Assembly (NCBI GenBank): GCA_017474925.1
Contig: JAFVGN010000014.1
Coordinates: 1-34,368 of the forward strand
Reading direction: 5' to 3'
DNA: 34,368 nucleotides
Origin: Prevotella sp.
GTDB lineage: Bacteria; Bacteroidota; Bacteroidia; Bacteroidales; Bacteroidaceae
Shown: in pieces, positions 5,543 through 15,695 of the stretch
Layout of the letters: each line of letters opens with the position of its first letter
Position numbering within the stretch: the stretch's first letter is position 1
Made by a program: the position numbers and the translations under genes
The notes under the pieces: generated by a model
Databases searched by the model: none
Told to the model about the DNA's origin: nothing
The model's input: only the letters and a program-made list of their open reading frames with translations

Positions 5543-6820
<1,278 letters not shown>

Positions 6821-6858: not shown

Positions 6859-7830
6859 TCATGCCCATCGCTGCATGTACTCTTTAGCGTAATAACTGAT
6901 GATATACTGTGCACCGGCACGCTTGATGGCTATCAGACTCTCGAACACCACGCGCTGCTCGTCGAGATAGCCGAGCTTGGCAGCAGCCTTGAGCATGGAG
7001 TACTCGCCACTCACCTGATAGGCCACCATCGGGATGTTAGGGAACCGCTCCACACCACGGGCAATCATGTCGAGATAAGGCATGGCAGGTTTCACCATGG
7101 TCCAGTCGGCACCCTCCTCAATATCGGCAGCAATCTCCTCCAGTCCCTGGTCGTGGGTGCGGTAGTCCATCTGGTAGGTCTTGCGATCGCCGAAGGCGGG
7201 AGCAGAGTCGGCAGCATCGCGGAACGGTCCGTAGAAGGCTGAGGCATATTTGGCGGAATAGGCCAGAATCTTGCATTTGTCGCGCAGTCCGGCCTCGCGC
7301 AGCCGCTTGTCGAGTGCCTCAATCTGTCCATCCATCATCGCCGAAGGCGCCACGAAGTCGGCACCGGCCTTGGCATGGACGTAGGCCATCTCGGCCAGCA
7401 GCGGCAGGGTGGAGTCGTTGTCCACGTCGTGGTGGCAGAGCAGGCCGCAGTGTCCGTGACTGGTATATTCGCAGAGACAGACGTCGGTGATGACGCACAC
7501 CTCGGGCTGGGCAGCCTTGATAGCCTTCACGGCACGGCAGACGAGTGCATCCTCGGCGTAGGCCAGCGAACCGCGCTCGTCCTTCTGGCTGTCGTCGATG
7601 ACGCCGAAGAGCAGCACCTTGTCGATGCCCAGTGCATACACCTCCTTGACATCCTCTACGAGCGTGTCGATGGAGAAGCGGCAGATGCCCGGCATCGTGG
7701 CAATCTCTTCCTTGACGCCAGCTCCTTCTACGACGAAATAGGGATAGATAAAGTCTTTCACACTGATGGATACGTCGGCATACTTGTCGCGTATCTCCTG
7801 CGTTGAACGGTAGGTTCTAAATCTTTTCAT
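6859..7830 (-). CDS. hemB: Delta-aminolevulinate dehydratase (porphobilinogen synthase)
   Basis: The 323-residue enzyme condenses two 5-aminolevulinates to porphobilinogen. The zinc-cysteine cluster DVCLCEYTSHGHC shows it is the Zn-dependent, cysteine-rich type. The two active-site lysines are in LAYSAKYASAFYGPFR and MVKPAMPYLD. Length is normal. Its start overlaps the hemD stop by four bases, so translation is coupled. Confidence 0.97.
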   Translation of the reverse strand: MKRFRTYRSTQEIRDKYADVSISVKDFIYPYFVVEGAGVKEEIATMPGICRFSIDTLVEDVKEVYALGIDKVLLFGVIDDSQKDERGSLAYAEDALVCRAVKAIKAAQPEVCVITDVCLCEYTSHGHCGLLCHHDVDNDSTLPLLAEMAYVHAKAGADFVAPSAMMDGQIEALDKRLREAGLRDKCKILAYSAKYASAFYGPFRDAADSAPAFGDRKTYQMDYRTHDQGLEEIAADIEEGADWTMVKPAMPYLDMIARGVERFPNIPMVAYQVSGEYSMLKAAAKLGYLDEQRVVFESLIAIKRAGAQYIISYYAKEYMQRWA

Positions 7831-8429
7831 AAGTTCTGTTGTTTTATCATTGTTTGTAAATATTGTTCGGTTACCGGGCCTCGGGTGGCAAGCTTCTTTC
7901 CTTCGGGCAGTGCGCCATAGAGGCGGATGAAGTGGTCGATGGTTGAGGGTGAAGTGAAGACGATGCGGTCCACCTCGTCAAGACAAATCTTCCGTGCATG
8001 CGCTGGCATCCGGTTGAGATAGGCTGTGATGCAGTCAACCTCAAACCCCAGTTCCTGGAGTCCTTCGGGGATGATGGGCAGTGCCAAGTTGGAGCGTGGG
8101 ATGAGTACACGGCCGCAAGGCTGTCTCCTGAACCAAGCTATCACGCCATACGAGTTGTCGTCATCTACTTGCTGAACCTCCTTTACCCCTATTTTATATA
8201 AGGCAGCAGTCGTGGTACTTCCGATAGACACGATGCGACGGGCATGAGCAAACATAGCCCCCACGTATCTGGCGGCATGACGCGAGGTGAAGAGCACGTA
8301 GTCATAGCGATCAATCTCGTGTGCCGCATGTTGCAGCGCACTGTCGTCCTCCACCGCCGTGATTTCTATCAGTGGCGTATGGATGCACTCAGCATCCGGT
8401 GGTGTCAATCCTGTAAACAAGGTTCTCAA
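7827..8429 (-). CDS. hemD: Uroporphyrinogen-III synthase
   Basis: HemD closes and inverts hydroxymethylbilane to uroporphyrinogen III. The sequence is divergent, as usual: TPLIEITAV, YDYVLFTSRHAARY, a central ISIGSTTTAALYKIGV-like segment and VFTSPSTIDHFIRLYG. At about 200 residues it is shorter than the common 240-260. No ATG is near the start. A TTG at 8429, with GGAG 7 bases upstream, gives the best reading (MRTLFTGLTPPD); TTG at 8444 and 8420 are alternatives. The start region lies inside a repeat that itself contains AAGGAG. Function is supported mainly by operon position and the strand pattern. Confidence 0.85.
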   Translation of the reverse strand: MRTLFTGLTPPDAECIHTPLIEITAVEDDSALQHAAHEIDRYDYVLFTSRHAARYVGAMFAHARRIVSIGSTTTAALYKIGVKEVQQVDDDNSYGVIAWFRRQPCGRVLIPRSNLALPIIPEGLQELGFEVDCITAYLNRMPAHARKICLDEVDRIVFTSPSTIDHFIRLYGALPEGKKLATRGPVTEQYLQTMIKQQNL

Positions 8430-8453
8430 CTCCTTACTCCTCAACTCCTTACC
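8425..8453 (-). repeat. TAAGGAGTTGAGGAG microrepeat at the hemC-hemD junction
   Basis: Two near-identical 15 bp units separate the hemA-hemC fusion from hemD. The same 18 bases (GAGGAGTAAGGAGTTGAG on the coding strand) recur between hemN and hemG. The units contain AAGGAG and so can act as ribosome sites. Confidence 0.6.
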
Positions 8454-9980
8454 CTATAGTATGCTACTTTTCGCGAATATCGCCTTCAGGTCGTTGCGTC
8501 CCTTTCTGGCTGTCACCGCCAGCCGGCCTTGCATGGGGTGGGTGGCAAAGGGCAGGATTTCGGCTATCTCACCCTCCATGCCGAGACGTTTCAAGGCACA
8601 CGTGGCCACGATGGCGGCATCAATCTGTCCCGACCTTACTTGCTGAACCCTGTCTTCGATGCATCCGCGAATACCCACGACTTCCAGGTCAGGGCGCAGC
8701 GCCAGCAGTTCCTGTCTGCGCAGGGGCGAACTGGTGCCGACGCGACTGCCTGCAGGCAGTGCTGCCAGCGTCTGGTTGCCGCGACTCACCAGCGCATCGG
8801 TCTTGTCGAATGCCTCATAGAGGGCTATGACCTCCAGTCCGCCATTCAGCTGTTCAGGCAGGTCCTTGGCCGAATGGATGGCCACGTCAGCCTCACCCTT
8901 CAGCAGTGCTTGGTCGAGTTCCCGGGTGAAGAAGTCGTCGGGTGCCTCGCCGTTGAGCAGTGAGACGTGTTGATGCTTATCGCCTAACGATGCCTGCACC
9001 TTCAACTTGTACGGCACCTCCGGCAGCCGTTGCATCACCTCCTCCACCTGCAGCTGCGACAGTCGGCTGCCACGGGCCACAATGCGGAGCGTATGGTGCT
9101 GGCTGCGGCGTGCCATGATTTCGCGCAGCAGTCCTATCTCTTCCTCAATCATCAGTTCTGCCTTCTGCACCTCCTCCTCCCTCACGGCGATGTTGGCCTG
9201 TACTTTCCGCTCCACGTCCTGCAGGTTGTAGAGCGTCACCTGCTCCATGTCAGCCACACGGGGGTCGATGTCGCGTGGGAAGGCCAGGTCGATAGCCAGC
9301 AGAGGGCGGTTGGGGTTCAGGTCTTCCTTAAAGATGATGGCATGGTCGGCAGAGGTGGCGCTAATCAGGATGTCCGTATGCTGTAGGAAATCGTCTTTCT
9401 CGTCTAGCTGCCTGACGTCGATACCGTATGGAGCGGCCATCCGCCGCGCTTTCTCCTCGGTACGGTTCGCTAGCATCATCACCTTGGCCCCTTTGTTCTT
9501 CAAGAACTTGATGATGTCTTCCGTCAGTTTGTTCACCCCGATGATGGTGATATGGGCATTGGAAAGGTTGATGTGCTGCTGCTCAATGATTTCGATGGCA
9601 GCCAGACTGTGGCTGACGGCCCCGTGGGATATCTCCGTCTCGTTGCGCACCCGCTTACCTATCTGCAGAGCACACTCGAAGAGCTTGTGCAGACCTGCCG
9701 AGAGCTTGACGCCACGCTGACGGGCTGCCTGGTAGGCATCCTTCACCTGCCCCTGTACGGCCCGCTCGCCAGTGATGGCCGATTCCAGACCGCATACCAC
9801 GCGGAATAGGTGGCGCGCCACCGCATCGGGCACCTCCCCGTCACCGTAGTAGAGTTCCACGCGGTTACATGTCTGTAGCAGCACCGACGGCCCTACGTCG
9901 TCACGGTTCAGGTGGCTGAAGTAGTCCTCACGTTCTTTCAAAGAGGTGGTGAGGTGATTTATCGATTTATATTGTATCAT
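8454..9980 (-). CDS. hemA: Glutamyl-tRNA reductase-hydroxymethylbilane synthase fusion (HemC part lacks domain 3)
   Basis: This 508-residue protein joins two pathway enzymes. Residues 1 to about 292 are glutamyl-tRNA reductase: catalytic Cys38 in LQTCNRVE, a Rossmann region near residue 145 with ANRTEEKA, and IDLAFPRDIDP. The part ends in the long spinal helix without the usual dimerisation domain. Residues about 297-508 are hydroxymethylbilane synthase: RGSRLSQLQ, HSAKDLP (catalytic Asp373), GTSSPLRR (Arg421-422) and RG(C)IEDR. The protein stops at MQGRLAVTARKGRNDL, where normal HemC still has about 90 residues including the cysteine that holds the dipyrromethane cofactor. I found no frameshifted remainder. 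The ATG at 9980 overlaps the hemE stop by 4 bases; an in-frame TTG lies two codons upstream. Confidence 0.93.
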   Translation of the reverse strand: MIQYKSINHLTTSLKEREDYFSHLNRDDVGPSVLLQTCNRVELYYGDGEVPDAVARHLFRVVCGLESAITGERAVQGQVKDAYQAARQRGVKLSAGLHKLFECALQIGKRVRNETEISHGAVSHSLAAIEIIEQQHINLSNAHITIIGVNKLTEDIIKFLKNKGAKVMMLANRTEEKARRMAAPYGIDVRQLDEKDDFLQHTDILISATSADHAIIFKEDLNPNRPLLAIDLAFPRDIDPRVADMEQVTLYNLQDVERKVQANIAVREEEVQKAELMIEEEIGLLREIMARRSQHHTLRIVARGSRLSQLQVEEVMQRLPEVPYKLKVQASLGDKHQHVSLLNGEAPDDFFTRELDQALLKGEADVAIHSAKDLPEQLNGGLEVIALYEAFDKTDALVSRGNQTLAALPAGSRVGTSSPLRRQELLALRPDLEVVGIRGCIEDRVQQVRSGQIDAAIVATCALKRLGMEGEIAEILPFATHPMQGRLAVTARKGRNDLKAIFAKSSIL

Positions 9981-10996
9981 CTCCAATCGGTTTCTTTAAT
10001 CCAGTCTATCAGGAACTTGACGTTCTCAACGGGTGTGTCGGCCAGCACCCCATGCCCCAGGTTCACCACCCATCTGTGATGCTCGCGGAAGAACGGCTTG
10101 TAGCCCTCCATGACCCGCCGTATCTCCTCATGCGAGGCAAAGAGCAGGTGGGGGTCCACATTTCCCTGCAACCCCACTTCGGGGTGTACCATCTGTCGGG
10201 CTTCAGTCAGCGACATCTGCCAGTCGATGCTGACGAAGTCGCACACATCCGGCATAATCTGCTTCAGTCCACAGCCCAGTCCTTTGGGGAAGAATATCAA
10301 GGGGGTGCCCATGGAGCGCACGGCATCCGTAATCCTGCAGACAGCCGGCAGGAACAGTGCGGCATAGATGTCGGCAGGCAGGAGTCCGGCATGGCTCTCG
10401 AACAGCTGGAAGGCATCGATGCCATGCTCCACCTGCTGGATGGCATACGCTATCGACAAGTCGGTCACGGCATCAATCAGTCGCCGTGTCTCTTCCTTGT
10501 TTTCGTAAAAGAATCGCTTGGCCTCGGGGAAGGTCTGCTTGGTGCTCATGCCTTGCAGCATATAGCAGAGCGTGGTCAGCGGTGCCCCGCAGAATCCTAT
10601 CAGGGGCACCTTGCTCTCATCCACGACAAGGTCGATGGCGCGATAGACATTGTCGAGGCGTTCCGGCTGAACCTTCAGACATTTAGAAGGGCGCTTTTCG
10701 GCAACCAGCGGATTCAGGAACCTGGGCCCCTGCTCCGTCCATTCTATCTCCATGCCCATAGCCATTGGCACCATCAGGATGTCGCTGAACAGGATGGCGG
10801 CATCCACCCCTAAATCCTCTACAGGCAGCAGCGTCACCTGTGCAGCCAACTCTGGCGTATTGATGAGTTCTGAAAAGGTGTATTGCTCACGCAACTTCTG
10901 GTAGCGTGGCAGTACGCGCCCTGCCTGTCGCATCAGCCATACAGGCGGCCGTCGGCACTCCCTTCCGAGCAATGTGTTCAAGAAAATACTCTCCAT
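9977..10996 (-). CDS. hemE: Uroporphyrinogen decarboxylase
   Basis: The 339-residue enzyme converts uroporphyrinogen III to coproporphyrinogen III. It has the two family signatures, PPVWLMRQAGR near the N terminus (the arginines hold substrate carboxylates) and GFCGAPLTTLCYM in the middle, plus GLQGNVDPHLL and NLGHGVLADTPVENV near the C terminus. Length is typical. The spacer upstream toward hemG consists of TTAAGAATTTAGAG-like microrepeats with a small dyad, TTGCCGCAGGCAA. Confidence 0.97.
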   Translation of the reverse strand: MESIFLNTLLGRECRRPPVWLMRQAGRVLPRYQKLREQYTFSELINTPELAAQVTLLPVEDLGVDAAILFSDILMVPMAMGMEIEWTEQGPRFLNPLVAEKRPSKCLKVQPERLDNVYRAIDLVVDESKVPLIGFCGAPLTTLCYMLQGMSTKQTFPEAKRFFYENKEETRRLIDAVTDLSIAYAIQQVEHGIDAFQLFESHAGLLPADIYAALFLPAVCRITDAVRSMGTPLIFFPKGLGCGLKQIMPDVCDFVSIDWQMSLTEARQMVHPEVGLQGNVDPHLLFASHEEIRRVMEGYKPFFREHHRWVVNLGHGVLADTPVENVKFLIDWIKETDWR

Positions 10997-11059: not shown

Positions 11060-12457
11060 TTAATTCTTAACTCTAAATTCTAAACACTTATTCGCCGTTT
11101 CTACCGCCTGCTTGATACGATGAGCCATGCCTATGCCGTCGCGCAGATTGCCCGCAATGGTCAGACCGCTATAGCAGCGTTGCAACCGCTCGATGGCATC
11201 GAAACGCTCACCCGAGGTAATCTCATACTGAGGTATGGCCCGCTGATGGCGGAAGATGCGGATGAGGTCAGGCTTTGCCTGCTTGGGGAATTTCAGCATC
11301 CCGTGGAAACACTGCTCCACCACGGCTGTCAGTTCGTCATCGCTTTTCTCCAACAGTTCGGCATGTCTGACACCGCCCAAGAAATAGGAGAACAAGGCAC
11401 CACCTTCCGGCGCACGCCCCGTAAAGCAGGCTGAAGGGAAGAGGATGCCCAGCACGGGCTGCTGCTCGCACGACGGCACCAGTCCGCCAAAGGCGCGATA
11501 GTCGCCCCCGAAGGTGTCACGCACGCCCACGCTAATCTCTACCACGGGGGCATAGCGCAGGTTGCTCAGCTGGCGCATGCTGCTGTCATCAACAAAGGGC
11601 AGCAGTTCGGGCAGACAATAGGCGCCGCACGTCGTAACCACCTGACGGCATCCGATGGTCTGCTGCTCACCCACCTTATCTATATATGTCACTGTCCAGC
11701 CGTCTTCCGTCGGCATCACCCTTACCTTGCGAACCCCCGTCAGCAGGGCTTCACCCAGATAGTCGGCCATGGCACGGGTGATCTGCCCCAGTCCGCCTAC
11801 CGCCGAGAACACCTTCTTTGTTGCCAGACGGTCTCTGTCGTTCTTCGGCTCTTTCATCTTCGCAAACGAACCGCGGATGAAACTGCCGTAATCATGTTCG
11901 AGGCGATAGAGCTTCGGCAGGGCATAGCGCGTAATGAGCGTGTCGGGGTTGCCGGCATAGACACCGGAGAGGAATGGATCGACGGCATAATCGACAAACG
12001 ACCTGCCAAGTCTCCGGCGTGCCAATGCTCCCACTGACTCGTCAGGATTCGTACCCTTTTTGCGCCACGGCTCTCCAAGGATTCTGAACTTGTCTGCCAG
12101 TGTGAACAGTGGGGTCGTCACGGCACTCACAGGACCAGAAGGAAGGTCATGGAAGCGGTTGCCTTTCCATATCAGGCGGCGCTTCGAGGCATCGGGTGCT
12201 ACTTCCATCCGGCACTTGCCACCTGATGTCTGCTCCAGGTCAGCCATTAGTTCGGCTACTTCGGGGCAGGATACCGTACCCGTATTCGGTCCGCTCTCGA
12301 AGACGAATCCTTGCTCCGTGTGCGTCTGTATCTGTCCGCCAGCCCTGTCCATTTGTTCCAGCACCATCACCTGGCATCCTTTGCGCACCAGCGTGTAGGC
12401 TGTTGTCAGGCCGGTCAGCCCGGCTCCTATAATCAATATATCTGTTTTCATCTTCAT
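11060..12457 (-). CDS. hemG: Protoporphyrinogen / coproporphyrinogen oxidase (HemG/HemY type)
   Basis: The 465-residue flavoprotein begins with the FAD dinucleotide motif IIGAGLTGLTTAYTL and the VLEQMDRAGGQIQT segment. It ends with TIAGNLRDGIGMAHRI, the second FAD-contact region of HemY-type oxidases. It should oxidise protoporphyrinogen IX; the coproporphyrin branch is less likely because an anaerobic coproporphyrinogen oxidase of the classic route lies next to it. HemY enzymes use oxygen in many bacteria, so the acceptor in an anaerobe is an open point. It follows hemN after a spacer made of AAGGAG-containing repeats. Confidence 0.93.
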   Translation of the reverse strand: MKMKTDILIIGAGLTGLTTAYTLVRKGCQVMVLEQMDRAGGQIQTHTEQGFVFESGPNTGTVSCPEVAELMADLEQTSGGKCRMEVAPDASKRRLIWKGNRFHDLPSGPVSAVTTPLFTLADKFRILGEPWRKKGTNPDESVGALARRRLGRSFVDYAVDPFLSGVYAGNPDTLITRYALPKLYRLEHDYGSFIRGSFAKMKEPKNDRDRLATKKVFSAVGGLGQITRAMADYLGEALLTGVRKVRVMPTEDGWTVTYIDKVGEQQTIGCRQVVTTCGAYCLPELLPFVDDSSMRQLSNLRYAPVVEISVGVRDTFGGDYRAFGGLVPSCEQQPVLGILFPSACFTGRAPEGGALFSYFLGGVRHAELLEKSDDELTAVVEQCFHGMLKFPKQAKPDLIRIFRHQRAIPQYEITSGERFDAIERLQRCYSGLTIAGNLRDGIGMAHRIKQAVETANKCLEFRVKN

Positions 12458-12500: not shown

Positions 12501-13838
12501 TCAAACCGGTTTTGAGAATGATTTCGTCGTATGTTGCATCAGCGGGTCGAGGAGTGCTGCCACATTCCTCACAAACGGACTGCTCTCATGTACCATCCTT
12601 ATCGTGTTACCATCGATGGTGATGATGCCGTCGGCCTGCATCTCCGCCAGTCGTTGTTCGTCATAGTTCAACACCGCCCGTTGCTCGTCGGTCAGCGTCA
12701 CGGCATAGTTGCACATCAGCGTGTCGATGACCTGCCTGGCCAGCTGTTCTTCCCTGCTCAGCAGATAGCCTTTCCTGACAGGCAGATGTCCGCTGCCCAC
12801 CGTCTGGATATATTCGTCGATGTCCCTCGTGTTCTGGGCGTAGGCCGCATCCAGCTGCGTGATGCCCGTCACGCCCAGCGCATAGACCTGTGCTGTGGTC
12901 CTGCGGGTGCAGTAGCCTTGGAAGTTCCTGTGCAGCAGACCGTCCTGCAATGCGGTGTAGAGCTCGTCGTTCGGTCGCACGAAATGGTCCATGCCCACCC
13001 TCACGTAGCCTGCTGCCGAAAGCAGTTTAGCCGCCTCGTCAAACATCCGGCCCTTCTCCTCAGCGGTGGGCAGCCCAGCCTTCTCCAGGATGAGTTGTTG
13101 TTTCTTCAACCAGGGCACGTGGGCATAGCTGAACATCACCAGCCGGTCGGGCTGCAGACGAATGGCCTGCGCTATTGTGCGACAAAAGCTCTCTGCTGTC
13201 TGGTAAGGCAGCCCGTAGAGAAAGTCCAGGTTGATGTGTGCTCCTCCGTCACGCAGCACGGCAAAGATGTCTTCCATGCGTTCCCGAGACGCTCGGCGGT
13301 TGACGGTCTTCAGTACCTTTTCGTCAAAATCCTGCACGCCAATACTGAATCGGGAAAAACCTGCTTCTACAAGTCCTTTCCAATCTAAAAGCGACAGATA
13401 GCCAGGGTGACACTCGATAGCCACCTCTGGACTGTCTATCTTTGGAAAAATATTTAAAATGTGTTGGTTGAGGGACTTGATGAGATCGGGCTGAAGACTT
13501 GTGGGACTTCCGCCCCCATAGTGTATCTGTGCAACCTGTCTGTCACGCTGTAACAAGGGGATTATCAGGTCGATTTCCTCATGCAATGCCTTCACGTAGT
13601 CAGCCACAGTTGCCTCACTGCGTATGGCGTATGAGTTACAGGCACAATAATGGCACAGGCTGCGGCAGAAGGGTATGTGCAGATAGAACGACAGGTTTCT
13701 GTCTTCCGCATCGTTTGAACAGCGAACGGCACCAGCGTATTCCTCCTCAGACAAATCTCTGAAATAGTTTGCCGGCGGATAGCTGGTGTACCGAGGAACA
13801 GGTACATTATATTTTTCTATAATAGCTGGTGTCAACAT
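12501..13838 (-). CDS. hemN: Oxygen-independent coproporphyrinogen III dehydrogenase
   Basis: The 445-residue radical SAM enzyme decarboxylates coproporphyrinogen III to protoporphyrinogen IX without oxygen. PRYTSYPPANYF at the N terminus is diagnostic of true HemN rather than HemW. The Fe-S motif is CRSLCHYCAC, followed by IHYGGGSPTSL, GVQDFDEKVLKTVNR and a C-terminal helical domain. I start at ATG 13838 (MLTPAIIEKY); a TTG seven codons upstream is possible but unneeded. It is the first gene of the heme operon and has a leader of about 110 nt with the structured element. Confidence 0.95.
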   Translation of the reverse strand: MLTPAIIEKYNVPVPRYTSYPPANYFRDLSEEEYAGAVRCSNDAEDRNLSFYLHIPFCRSLCHYCACNSYAIRSEATVADYVKALHEEIDLIIPLLQRDRQVAQIHYGGGSPTSLQPDLIKSLNQHILNIFPKIDSPEVAIECHPGYLSLLDWKGLVEAGFSRFSIGVQDFDEKVLKTVNRRASRERMEDIFAVLRDGGAHINLDFLYGLPYQTAESFCRTIAQAIRLQPDRLVMFSYAHVPWLKKQQLILEKAGLPTAEEKGRMFDEAAKLLSAAGYVRVGMDHFVRPNDELYTALQDGLLHRNFQGYCTRRTTAQVYALGVTGITQLDAAYAQNTRDIDEYIQTVGSGHLPVRKGYLLSREEQLARQVIDTLMCNYAVTLTDEQRAVLNYDEQRLAEMQADGIITIDGNTIRMVHESSPFVRNVAALLDPLMQHTTKSFSKPV

Positions 13839-13874
13839 GAAATCTAGCTTAGTTCGCAATTTTCAACTGCAAGG

Positions 13875-14693: not shown

Positions 14694-15695
14694 ATGAAGA
14701 AACTAATGACTATCTGCCTCATGGCAATTGCAAGTGTGCTGAGCGTATCGGCACAAAGTATTTATGACATCAAAGTCAAGAACGATGTTGAGCAGGAAGT
14801 TTCCCTCTCTGACTATAAAGGGAAAGTGCTGTTGATTGTCAACACCGCTACCCGTTGCGGGTTTACGCCTCAATACAAGGAGCTGGAGGCGCTCTATGAG
14901 AAGTACCGTGGTGAAGGTTTTGAAATCCTCGACTTCCCCTGCAACCAGTTTGGCGAACAGGCTCCTGGCACGATTCGGGAGATTCACCAGTTCTGTAAGG
15001 TCAACTTCGACATCCAGTTCCCACAGTTCGACAAGATCGAGGTGAATGGAGCCAACGAGCACCCACTCTATACATGGCTGAAGGGAGGCAACGACATCAA
15101 GTGGAACTTCACCAAGTTCCTTGTCTCTCGTGACGGTCGTGTAGTGAAGCGTTATGAGCCGAAGGATAAAATTAGCGACATCGAAGCAGATATTTGTATG
15201 GAGACGAATCCTGTACTGAGCACAATTATGGCTCGTCGTAGTGTCCGTAAATATCTCGACAAGCCAGTAGAACATGAGAAATTGGAAATAATTGTCCGTG
15301 CAGGTATCAATGCACCCAGCGGTATGAACCGCCAGCCGTGGGTTGTCCGCGTGGTGGAAGACCAGAAACTGATTGCCGACGTAAACAAAGTGTGCAGGGG
15401 ACTCTACAATGCCCCCAACCTTATTTGTGTATGCACGCCGGTAAATGGTGGAGATCTTGATGCGGGCTTACTCGGTGAGAACATGATGCTGGCAGCACAG
15501 TCTCTGGGACTCGGCACTTGCTGTCTCGGTGGACCTGTCCGTTTTCTGAATACGAATGCCGATGCTAAATTCTTCCTCGATCGTCTCGACATACCCGAAG
15601 GTTTCAAACTGAACTACATCCTTGCAATCGGCTATCCTGACGAGCAGCCCAAAGCCAAGCCTCGCGATGCATCTAAAGTGAAGTTTATTTATTAA
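14694..15695 (+). CDS. Exported glutathione peroxidase-nitroreductase fusion
   Basis: This 333-residue protein carries a signal peptide (MKKLMTICLMAIASVLSVSA, cleavage near residue 20). A full glutathione peroxidase domain follows at residues about 22-167: peroxidatic Cys55 in NTATRCGFTPQ, FPCNQFGEQ, KWNFTKFLVSRDGR. A nitroreductase domain fills residues about 174-333: IMARRSVRKYLDKPVE, APSGMNRQPW, GLGTCCLGGP. Both domains look complete and there is no frameshift. A periplasmic peroxidase wired to an FMN oxidoreductase could pass electrons within one chain. The cytoplasmic cluster at 2.4-4.1 kb encodes the same two activities separately. A flavin-reductase-like lipoprotein follows 8 bases downstream. 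Confidence 0.92.
   Translation: MKKLMTICLMAIASVLSVSAQSIYDIKVKNDVEQEVSLSDYKGKVLLIVNTATRCGFTPQYKELEALYEKYRGEGFEILDFPCNQFGEQAPGTIREIHQFCKVNFDIQFPQFDKIEVNGANEHPLYTWLKGGNDIKWNFTKFLVSRDGRVVKRYEPKDKISDIEADICMETNPVLSTIMARRSVRKYLDKPVEHEKLEIIVRAGINAPSGMNRQPWVVRVVEDQKLIADVNKVCRGLYNAPNLICVCTPVNGGDLDAGLLGENMMLAAQSLGLGTCCLGGPVRFLNTNADAKFFLDRLDIPEGFKLNYILAIGYPDEQPKAKPRDASKVKFIY

Follow-up and report, generated by a model that had tools for sequence, protein, structure and literature searches.

In hydroxymethylbilane synthase (HemC), dipyrromethane is described as being attached to an invariant cysteine (PMC3949521), and this cofactor cysteine is carried by a domain-3 loop (PMC7907807). How could a HemC that ends before domain 3 hold its growing chain? 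This question is raised by a gene in a stretch of 34,368 nucleotides from Prevotella sp. (GenBank assembly GCA_017474925.1, contig JAFVGN010000014.1; hereafter, the window), for which the original prediction was a single frame joining glutamyl-tRNA reductase (HemA) to a HemC without the cofactor-binding domain. A natural, conserved two-domain HemC would allow a long-standing question to be tested, namely whether a built-in primer and a pulling loop are needed for counting four pyrroles or are only one way to solve the task.

The fusion gene and its operon

The HemA-HemC fusion gene (8454..9980, minus strand) is, as predicted, one open frame that runs from an ATG at 9980 to a TAG at 8454 and encodes 508 amino acids. 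Its minimal glutamyl-tRNA reductase part (residues 1–296; 9093..9980, minus strand) contains the catalytic Cys38 (motif TCNR) and the NADPH domain (Shikimate_DH, PF01488). The match to GlutR_N (PF05201) is limited to profile positions 90–151 of 151, and no GlutR_dimer (PF00745) match was found by Pfam in the 508-aa fusion, in agreement with the claim that the reductase lacks its dimerisation domain. Compared to the glutamyl-tRNA reductase family (TIGR01035, 229 bits against a cut-off of 209.55; M. kandleri 1GPJ), the fusion thus shares the catalytic cysteine and the NADPH domain but has a shortened N-terminal domain and no dimerisation domain. Another model of a short glutamyl-tRNA reductase is NF001909 (338 positions), and further minimal reductases are encoded at L046 8241–9134 and L154 4804–5697.

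The two-domain HemC part (residues 297–508, 212 aa; 8457..9092, minus strand) matched Porphobil_deam (PF01379) with 172.5 bits over profile positions 1–206 of 207, and Porphobil_deamC (PF03900) was not matched by Pfam in the fusion. The reading that HemC keeps domains 1 and 2 and ends before domain 3 is therefore borne out. The fusion passed the TIGR00212 equivalog cut-off (173.0 bits; cut-off 164), and residues 6–217 of the 313 residues of E. coli HemC align with a profile built from six short HemCs.

The hem and hem-like genes around the fusion on the same strand each gave a clear Pfam match. On the downstream side, these are hemD (7827..8444, minus strand; PF02602), which encodes uroporphyrinogen-III synthase, the next step of the pathway, hemB (6859..7830, minus strand; PF00490), and a hemL-like aminotransferase gene (5543..6820, minus strand; PF00202). 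Upstream are hemE (9977..10996, minus strand; PF01208), a candidate for a hemG-type protoporphyrinogen oxidase (11060..12457, minus strand; PF01593), and a hemN-like radical SAM protein gene (12501..13859, minus strand; PF04055); the hemL, hemG, and hemN names were given from context. In another part of the window (14694–15695), one frame encodes a glutathione peroxidase domain joined to a nitroreductase domain.

Distribution and fusion states of the short HemC

The assembly to which the window belongs (G000; 66 contigs) contains two PF01379 matches, one in the window and one on contig C50. The latter belongs to a 664-aa HemC-SUMT-HemD fusion that likewise has no domain 3 and that scores 160.4 bits against TIGR00212, just below the cut-off of 164. 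PF03900 was not matched anywhere in this assembly (63.65% complete) at E <= 0.001, so the search for a separate domain 3 returned nothing here, and the complete hemC elsewhere in the genome that had been considered originally was not found, the second HemC being short as well. Upstream of the HemC-SUMT-HemD gene on C50 are a CysG-type dehydrogenase gene and a gene for a 298-aa HemA without dimerisation domain, hemB and hemL follow downstream, and sulfite-reductase/TusA, PAPS-reductase, and EF-Tu-like GTPase genes are found beside the operon. Sulfite reductase requires siroheme, and the genome looks as if it had one operon for heme and another for siroheme, with a separate short HemC in either of them. 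There was no sign that C50 is a foreign contig, though this is not proof: it is the closest tetranucleotide match to the window (0.92) among 13 loci, with a GC content of 47.7% (window: 50.2%). Locus L046 5457–18159 of the same genome comprises this second tetrapyrrole operon (CysG-like, HemA, HemC-SUMT-HemD, HemB, HemL) and, next to it, a single frame in which a sulfite reductase domain is joined to a TusA domain, along with genes of the PAPS-reductase type.

The same HemA-HemC fusion is carried by Xylanibacter brevis ATCC 19188, and short HemCs recur in 24 genomes (the window's own, X. brevis ATCC 19188, and 22 others). This recurrence is beyond chance and rules out an assembly error or a local truncation, which the original prediction had named as a possible explanation. 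Among 198 genomes of the order, PF01379 was matched in 38 and PF03900 in 33, and five had PF01379 without domain 3 (G000, G030, G037, G091, and G162); in G162, the end of a contig interrupts HemC and leaves a frame of 104 aa, and this genome was neither counted as a short form nor used in the residue counts. Using profile A2, we found HemC in 13 of 301 genomes of the family, all 13 of the short type (275–380 bits), and none in the other 288. The same profile matched 69 of 393 genomes of the order, 11 of them with the short form, including one (G931) with a 190-aa frame ending before residue 461 that was left out of the residue counts and kept in the Pfam genome tests. In a phylum-wide sample of 395 genomes, 318 gave a match and, the window's own genome aside, none exceeded 151.5 bits, a score at which three-domain HemCs lie; the short type was therefore seen only inside the order in these samples. 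No relatives were found when viral contigs were searched.

A tree was built from 24 short and 70 three-domain HemCs after removal of the 13 columns that contain the traits, and the program warned of long branches. In this tree, the short proteins all lie beyond one branch with support of 100/99. They form a single clade and therefore share one origin, so that the 24 counts are not independent cases. The 70 three-domain rows are not a random sample: they are distinct sequences from the loci of the best-scoring matches, plus two more; nine of the 19 loci L126–L144 were added, the remainder of which were duplicates or not parsed. PF03900 was over the Pfam cut-off in 0/24 short-form genomes (0/17 and 0/7), including the nine listed as 99–100% complete, and in 5/5 control genomes with three-domain HemC. 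The dimerisation domain of glutamyl-tRNA reductase (PF00745) was also found in 0/24 (0/17 and 0/7), with HemA fused or not, and in 12/12 genomes with three-domain HemC (7/7 and 5/5). The losses of the reductase dimerisation domain and of HemC domain 3 go together, and the HemC without domain 3 is a trait of a Bacteroidales clade and not of the HemA-HemC fusion.

The 24 short proteins comprise seven HemA-HemC fusions, 15 HemC-SUMT-HemD fusions, one HemA-HemC-SUMT-HemD fusion, and one stand-alone protein (G1013; 217 aa) that is encoded near a 298-aa HemA gene, hemG, hemE, hemD, hemB, and hemL. HemD adjoins HemC or shares its frame in all 24 cases and directly follows it in the window, X. brevis, and G1013, and SUMT begins at the expected position of domain 3 in the SUMT-type fusions. 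A fusion partner standing in for domain 3 was ruled out, because the stand-alone form exists and no partner is thus needed to replace this domain. The seven HemA-HemC proteins and the stand-alone form of G1013 are a clade with support of 100/98; since G1013 falls within the HemA-HemC clade, its short HemC was likely acquired by transfer. Three-domain HemCs were present in the same genera as the short-form genomes G1013 (G1073 and G943) and G949, G1017, and G1077 (G064 and G169), as if short and three-domain HemCs had replaced each other across the genomes of one genus.

Active-site residues kept, lost, and gained

Compared to three-domain HemC (TIGR00212; E. coli 1PDA and human HMBS), the short form shares domains 1 and 2, ten active-site residues, and its position in the pathway, whereas domain 3 with the cofactor cysteine is absent, Arg131, Lys55, and Lys59 are lost, and Cys461 and His481 are gained. 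Residues were counted in the 24 short and the 70 three-domain rows, with E. coli numbers assigned by alignment. Arg11, Ser13, Gln19, Lys83, Asp84, Ser129, Arg132, Arg149, Arg155, and Arg176 are kept in 24/24 and 70/70, and Thr127 in 23/24 short HemCs. The catalytic Asp84 is Asp373 of the fusion (codon 8862..8864, minus strand), which had been placed correctly. One detail of the Arg421-422 pair that was named along with it needs correction: Arg421 corresponds to E. coli Arg132 and Arg422 to Gln133, and the place of Arg131 is taken by Leu420 (codon 8721..8723, minus strand). Arg131 is found in 0/24 short HemCs and in 70/70 of the three-domain HemCs read. Two lysines of the lid loop, Lys55 (0/24 short vs. 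62/70 three-domain) and Lys59 (0/24 vs. 45/70), are missing as well, although gaps in this part of the alignment make the pairing less sure. The aromatic residue at the place of Trp18 (Tyr in 30 and Trp in 28 three-domain rows) is lost, with Leu in 11 short HemCs, Ile in eight, and others in the rest. Further switches in the short clade are Ser331 for Thr, Asp349 for Gly, Asp356 for Glu, and Ala371 for Leu.

Two residues, both in segments of the active site, were gained throughout the short clade. Cys461 (motif ATC; codon 8598..8600, minus strand), at the place of E. coli Ala172, is present in 24/24 short and 0/70 three-domain HemCs (Ala in 65, Thr in three, Ser in two), and it was the sole invariant cysteine in a column-wise scan of 18 short rows. 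His481 (motif THPxQG; codon 8538..8540, minus strand) occurs in 24/24 short and 0/70 three-domain HemCs (Ala in 69, Ser in one). The original prediction had pointed to two cysteines at unusual places. The positions of both were right and Cys461 stands out as it proposed, but Cys440 (motif RGC; codon 8661..8663, minus strand) is not conserved (12/24 short HemCs) and was rejected as an anchor, because a residue found in half of the clade is not a shared one.

What is known of three-domain enzymes bears on these exchanges. In PMC3945110, the E. coli changes R131L and R132L are described as giving no dipyrromethane binding and an inactive enzyme, K55Q and K59Q as affecting activity, and Arg131 as the equivalent of human Arg149. 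In human HMBS, this Arg149 forms a salt bridge with ring C1 of the cofactor (PMC7907807, Table 2). In the simulation of PMC3945110, Ala172, the place of Cys461, is one of the residues in contact with the chain when it has four, five, or six rings (Table 1), and Ala170 contacts the cofactor at the cofactor stage. The loss of the domain-3 cysteine is thus accompanied by a change in the site that binds the ring next to it, in a short HemC in which the substrate side is mostly kept, the lid loop is changed, and a new thiol lies on the path of the chain. It is this combination of an altered ring-C1 site, a lost domain-3 cysteine, and a new thiol on the predicted path of the chain that makes the case for an anchor at Cys461. 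Any role of His481 can only be guessed at, on the basis of its position within the QG loop.

The short HemC is under purifying selection. For the HemC part, five pairs gave dN/dS values of 0.119, 0.037, 0.076, 0.082, and 0.127, with dS close to saturation in two of these pairs (1.85 and 1.88); the other three of the eight pairs were saturated at synonymous sites and not computable. The short HemC frames contain no internal stops, and the short form is kept by two genomes (1.0 and 1.2 Mb) with an estimated completeness of 99%. The low dN/dS together with retention in genomes of this size argues for function, and we consider it very probable from these sequence comparisons that the two-domain HemC works. 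The original view that simple decay is unlikely gains from these values and from the ten residues kept in every short HemC.

How the chain may be held without domain 3

Our preferred reading is that a HemC made of domains 1 and 2, here fused to a minimal glutamyl-tRNA reductase, would supply HemD with hydroxymethylbilane although it has no domain-3 cysteine, and that the cleft of domains 1 and 2 would hold the growing chain, with Cys461 as the most likely point of attachment. Cys461 is a strong candidate for the replacement anchor, and we give the complete proposal (a working enzyme in a hem operon that holds its chain in the cleft, with this residue as the most likely anchor) a chance somewhat short of even. 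Tentatively, the short form may dispense with the dipyrromethane cofactor: porphobilinogen units would be assembled directly on Cys461, together with His481, and set free by hydrolysis, or else the chain would be held non-covalently, with ~212 residues being sufficient. If true, this cofactor-free reading would mean that a reaction considered to require three domains can be carried out by two. The 217-aa stand-alone form would offer a small scaffold for studying the chemistry.

Several points count against the preferred reading: the common origin of all 24 short HemCs, the loss of the lid-loop lysines, the detection of ferrochelatase in only one of 12 short-HemC genomes searched, and the residue preferences of another model without room for domain 3. 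NCBIfam NF002202 (PRK01066.1), a hydroxymethylbilane synthase model that we take to be chlamydial, has 241 positions, which is too short for domain 3, and was matched by the window HemC at positions 21–228. Four short proteins scored 172–188 bits against it and four three-domain proteins 122–141 bits, and its cut-off of 251 bits was not reached by any of a set of four HemC-bearing proteins (157.6–190.2 bits), among them the fusion (171.8 bits) and the C50 protein (157.6 bits). Its preferences were read by rescoring letter changes in the window HemC (baseline 170.6 bits). Like the short clade, the model seems to prefer Ala371 (-3.9 bits when changed), Asp356 (-2.9), Ala462 (-3.2), and His481 (H481A: -3.4), and, unlike this clade, it seems to prefer Ala at 461 (C461A: +2.7 bits) and Arg at the place of Arg131 (L420R: +3.7 bits). 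Interleaved Cys/Ala replacement over model positions 21–228, followed by a split of two suspicious sets (largest Cys-over-Ala gain 1.6 bits), showed no strongly preferred cysteine in the resolved groups; one set, g7 (+0.4 bits; control TIGR00212: -1.8), was kept whole.

If the enzymes behind NF002202 work, a HemC without domain 3 need not have Cys461, and the preference of this model for Ala at 461 is why an untethered mechanism is kept as the main rival. Here, the basic cleft would hold a free oligopyrrole primer or chain non-covalently, and Cys461 would be used otherwise (packing, redox, or general acid-base). The four preferences that NF002202 has in common with the short clade and its lack of a strongly preferred cysteine in the resolved groups both fit this mechanism. 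We nevertheless regard it as doubtful, given that Cys461 is invariant over deep divergence in the short clade and absent from all 70 three-domain relatives, that the clade with Cys461 is the one that lost the arginine binding cofactor ring C1, and that the NF002202 reading is indirect and incomplete in its coverage.

The gain of Cys461 and His481 and the loss of Arg131 and the lid-loop lysines would suit an enzyme that makes a different product from porphobilinogen (e.g., a shorter oligopyrrole) or that feeds HemD by a changed route, but the constant presence of HemD beside HemC or in its frame makes this improbable.

A decaying or non-functional gene, with porphyrins or heme taken up from outside, is quite improbable in view of the stop-free frames, the low dN/dS values, the ten active-site residues kept in 24/24, the retention in 1.0–1.2 Mb genomes, and the four fusion states. 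It draws on the absence of HemC from most genomes of the family, on the loss of Arg131, Lys55, and Lys59, which matter in E. coli, and on the end of the pathway. Ferrochelatase (PF00762) was not found in 11 of 12 short-HemC genomes searched, including that of the window, despite hemE and the hemG-like gene in the window operon; the exception was G1013, and three of the 12 genomes are <90% complete or of unstated completeness. Short-HemC genomes without ferrochelatase may use another chelatase, or their pathway may end earlier. The strain now named X. brevis has reportedly been described as not heme-requiring. Prevotella bryantii B14 is described as heme-requiring, and its proteome study mentions enzymes for the steps from glutamate to protoporphyrinogen IX and the absence of the final enzyme (PMC7709123).

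Least probable of all is that another protein, diverged in sequence, provides domain 3 in trans, as the original prediction had allowed: five PF03900 matches below the cut-off (search run to E <= 1; E 0.06–0.36) in 4/17 genomes speak for it, but they cover 23–40 of 74 positions, only one of them has not been placed on a contig other than that of HemC, no genome of the 24 has PF03900 over the cut-off, and the place after domain 2 is taken by HemD or SUMT in the arrangements described above.

Short HemC sequences are not unknown, as they are already in databases. Among the results of full-text searches of open-access literature (subscription papers fall mostly outside it), we recognized no description of a HemC without domain 3, a HemA-HemC fusion, the Bacteroidales short-HemC clade, the HemA-HemC-SUMT-HemD order, or the Cys461/Arg131 exchange. 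Multi-enzyme fusions for uroporphyrinogen and siroheme include the CysG and HemC-HemD types. These types also fuse tetrapyrrole steps, and the HemA-HemC and HemA-HemC-SUMT-HemD orders differ from them. In G1017, a single frame of 980 aa (L156 8498–11437) contains HemA, HemC, SUMT, and HemD.
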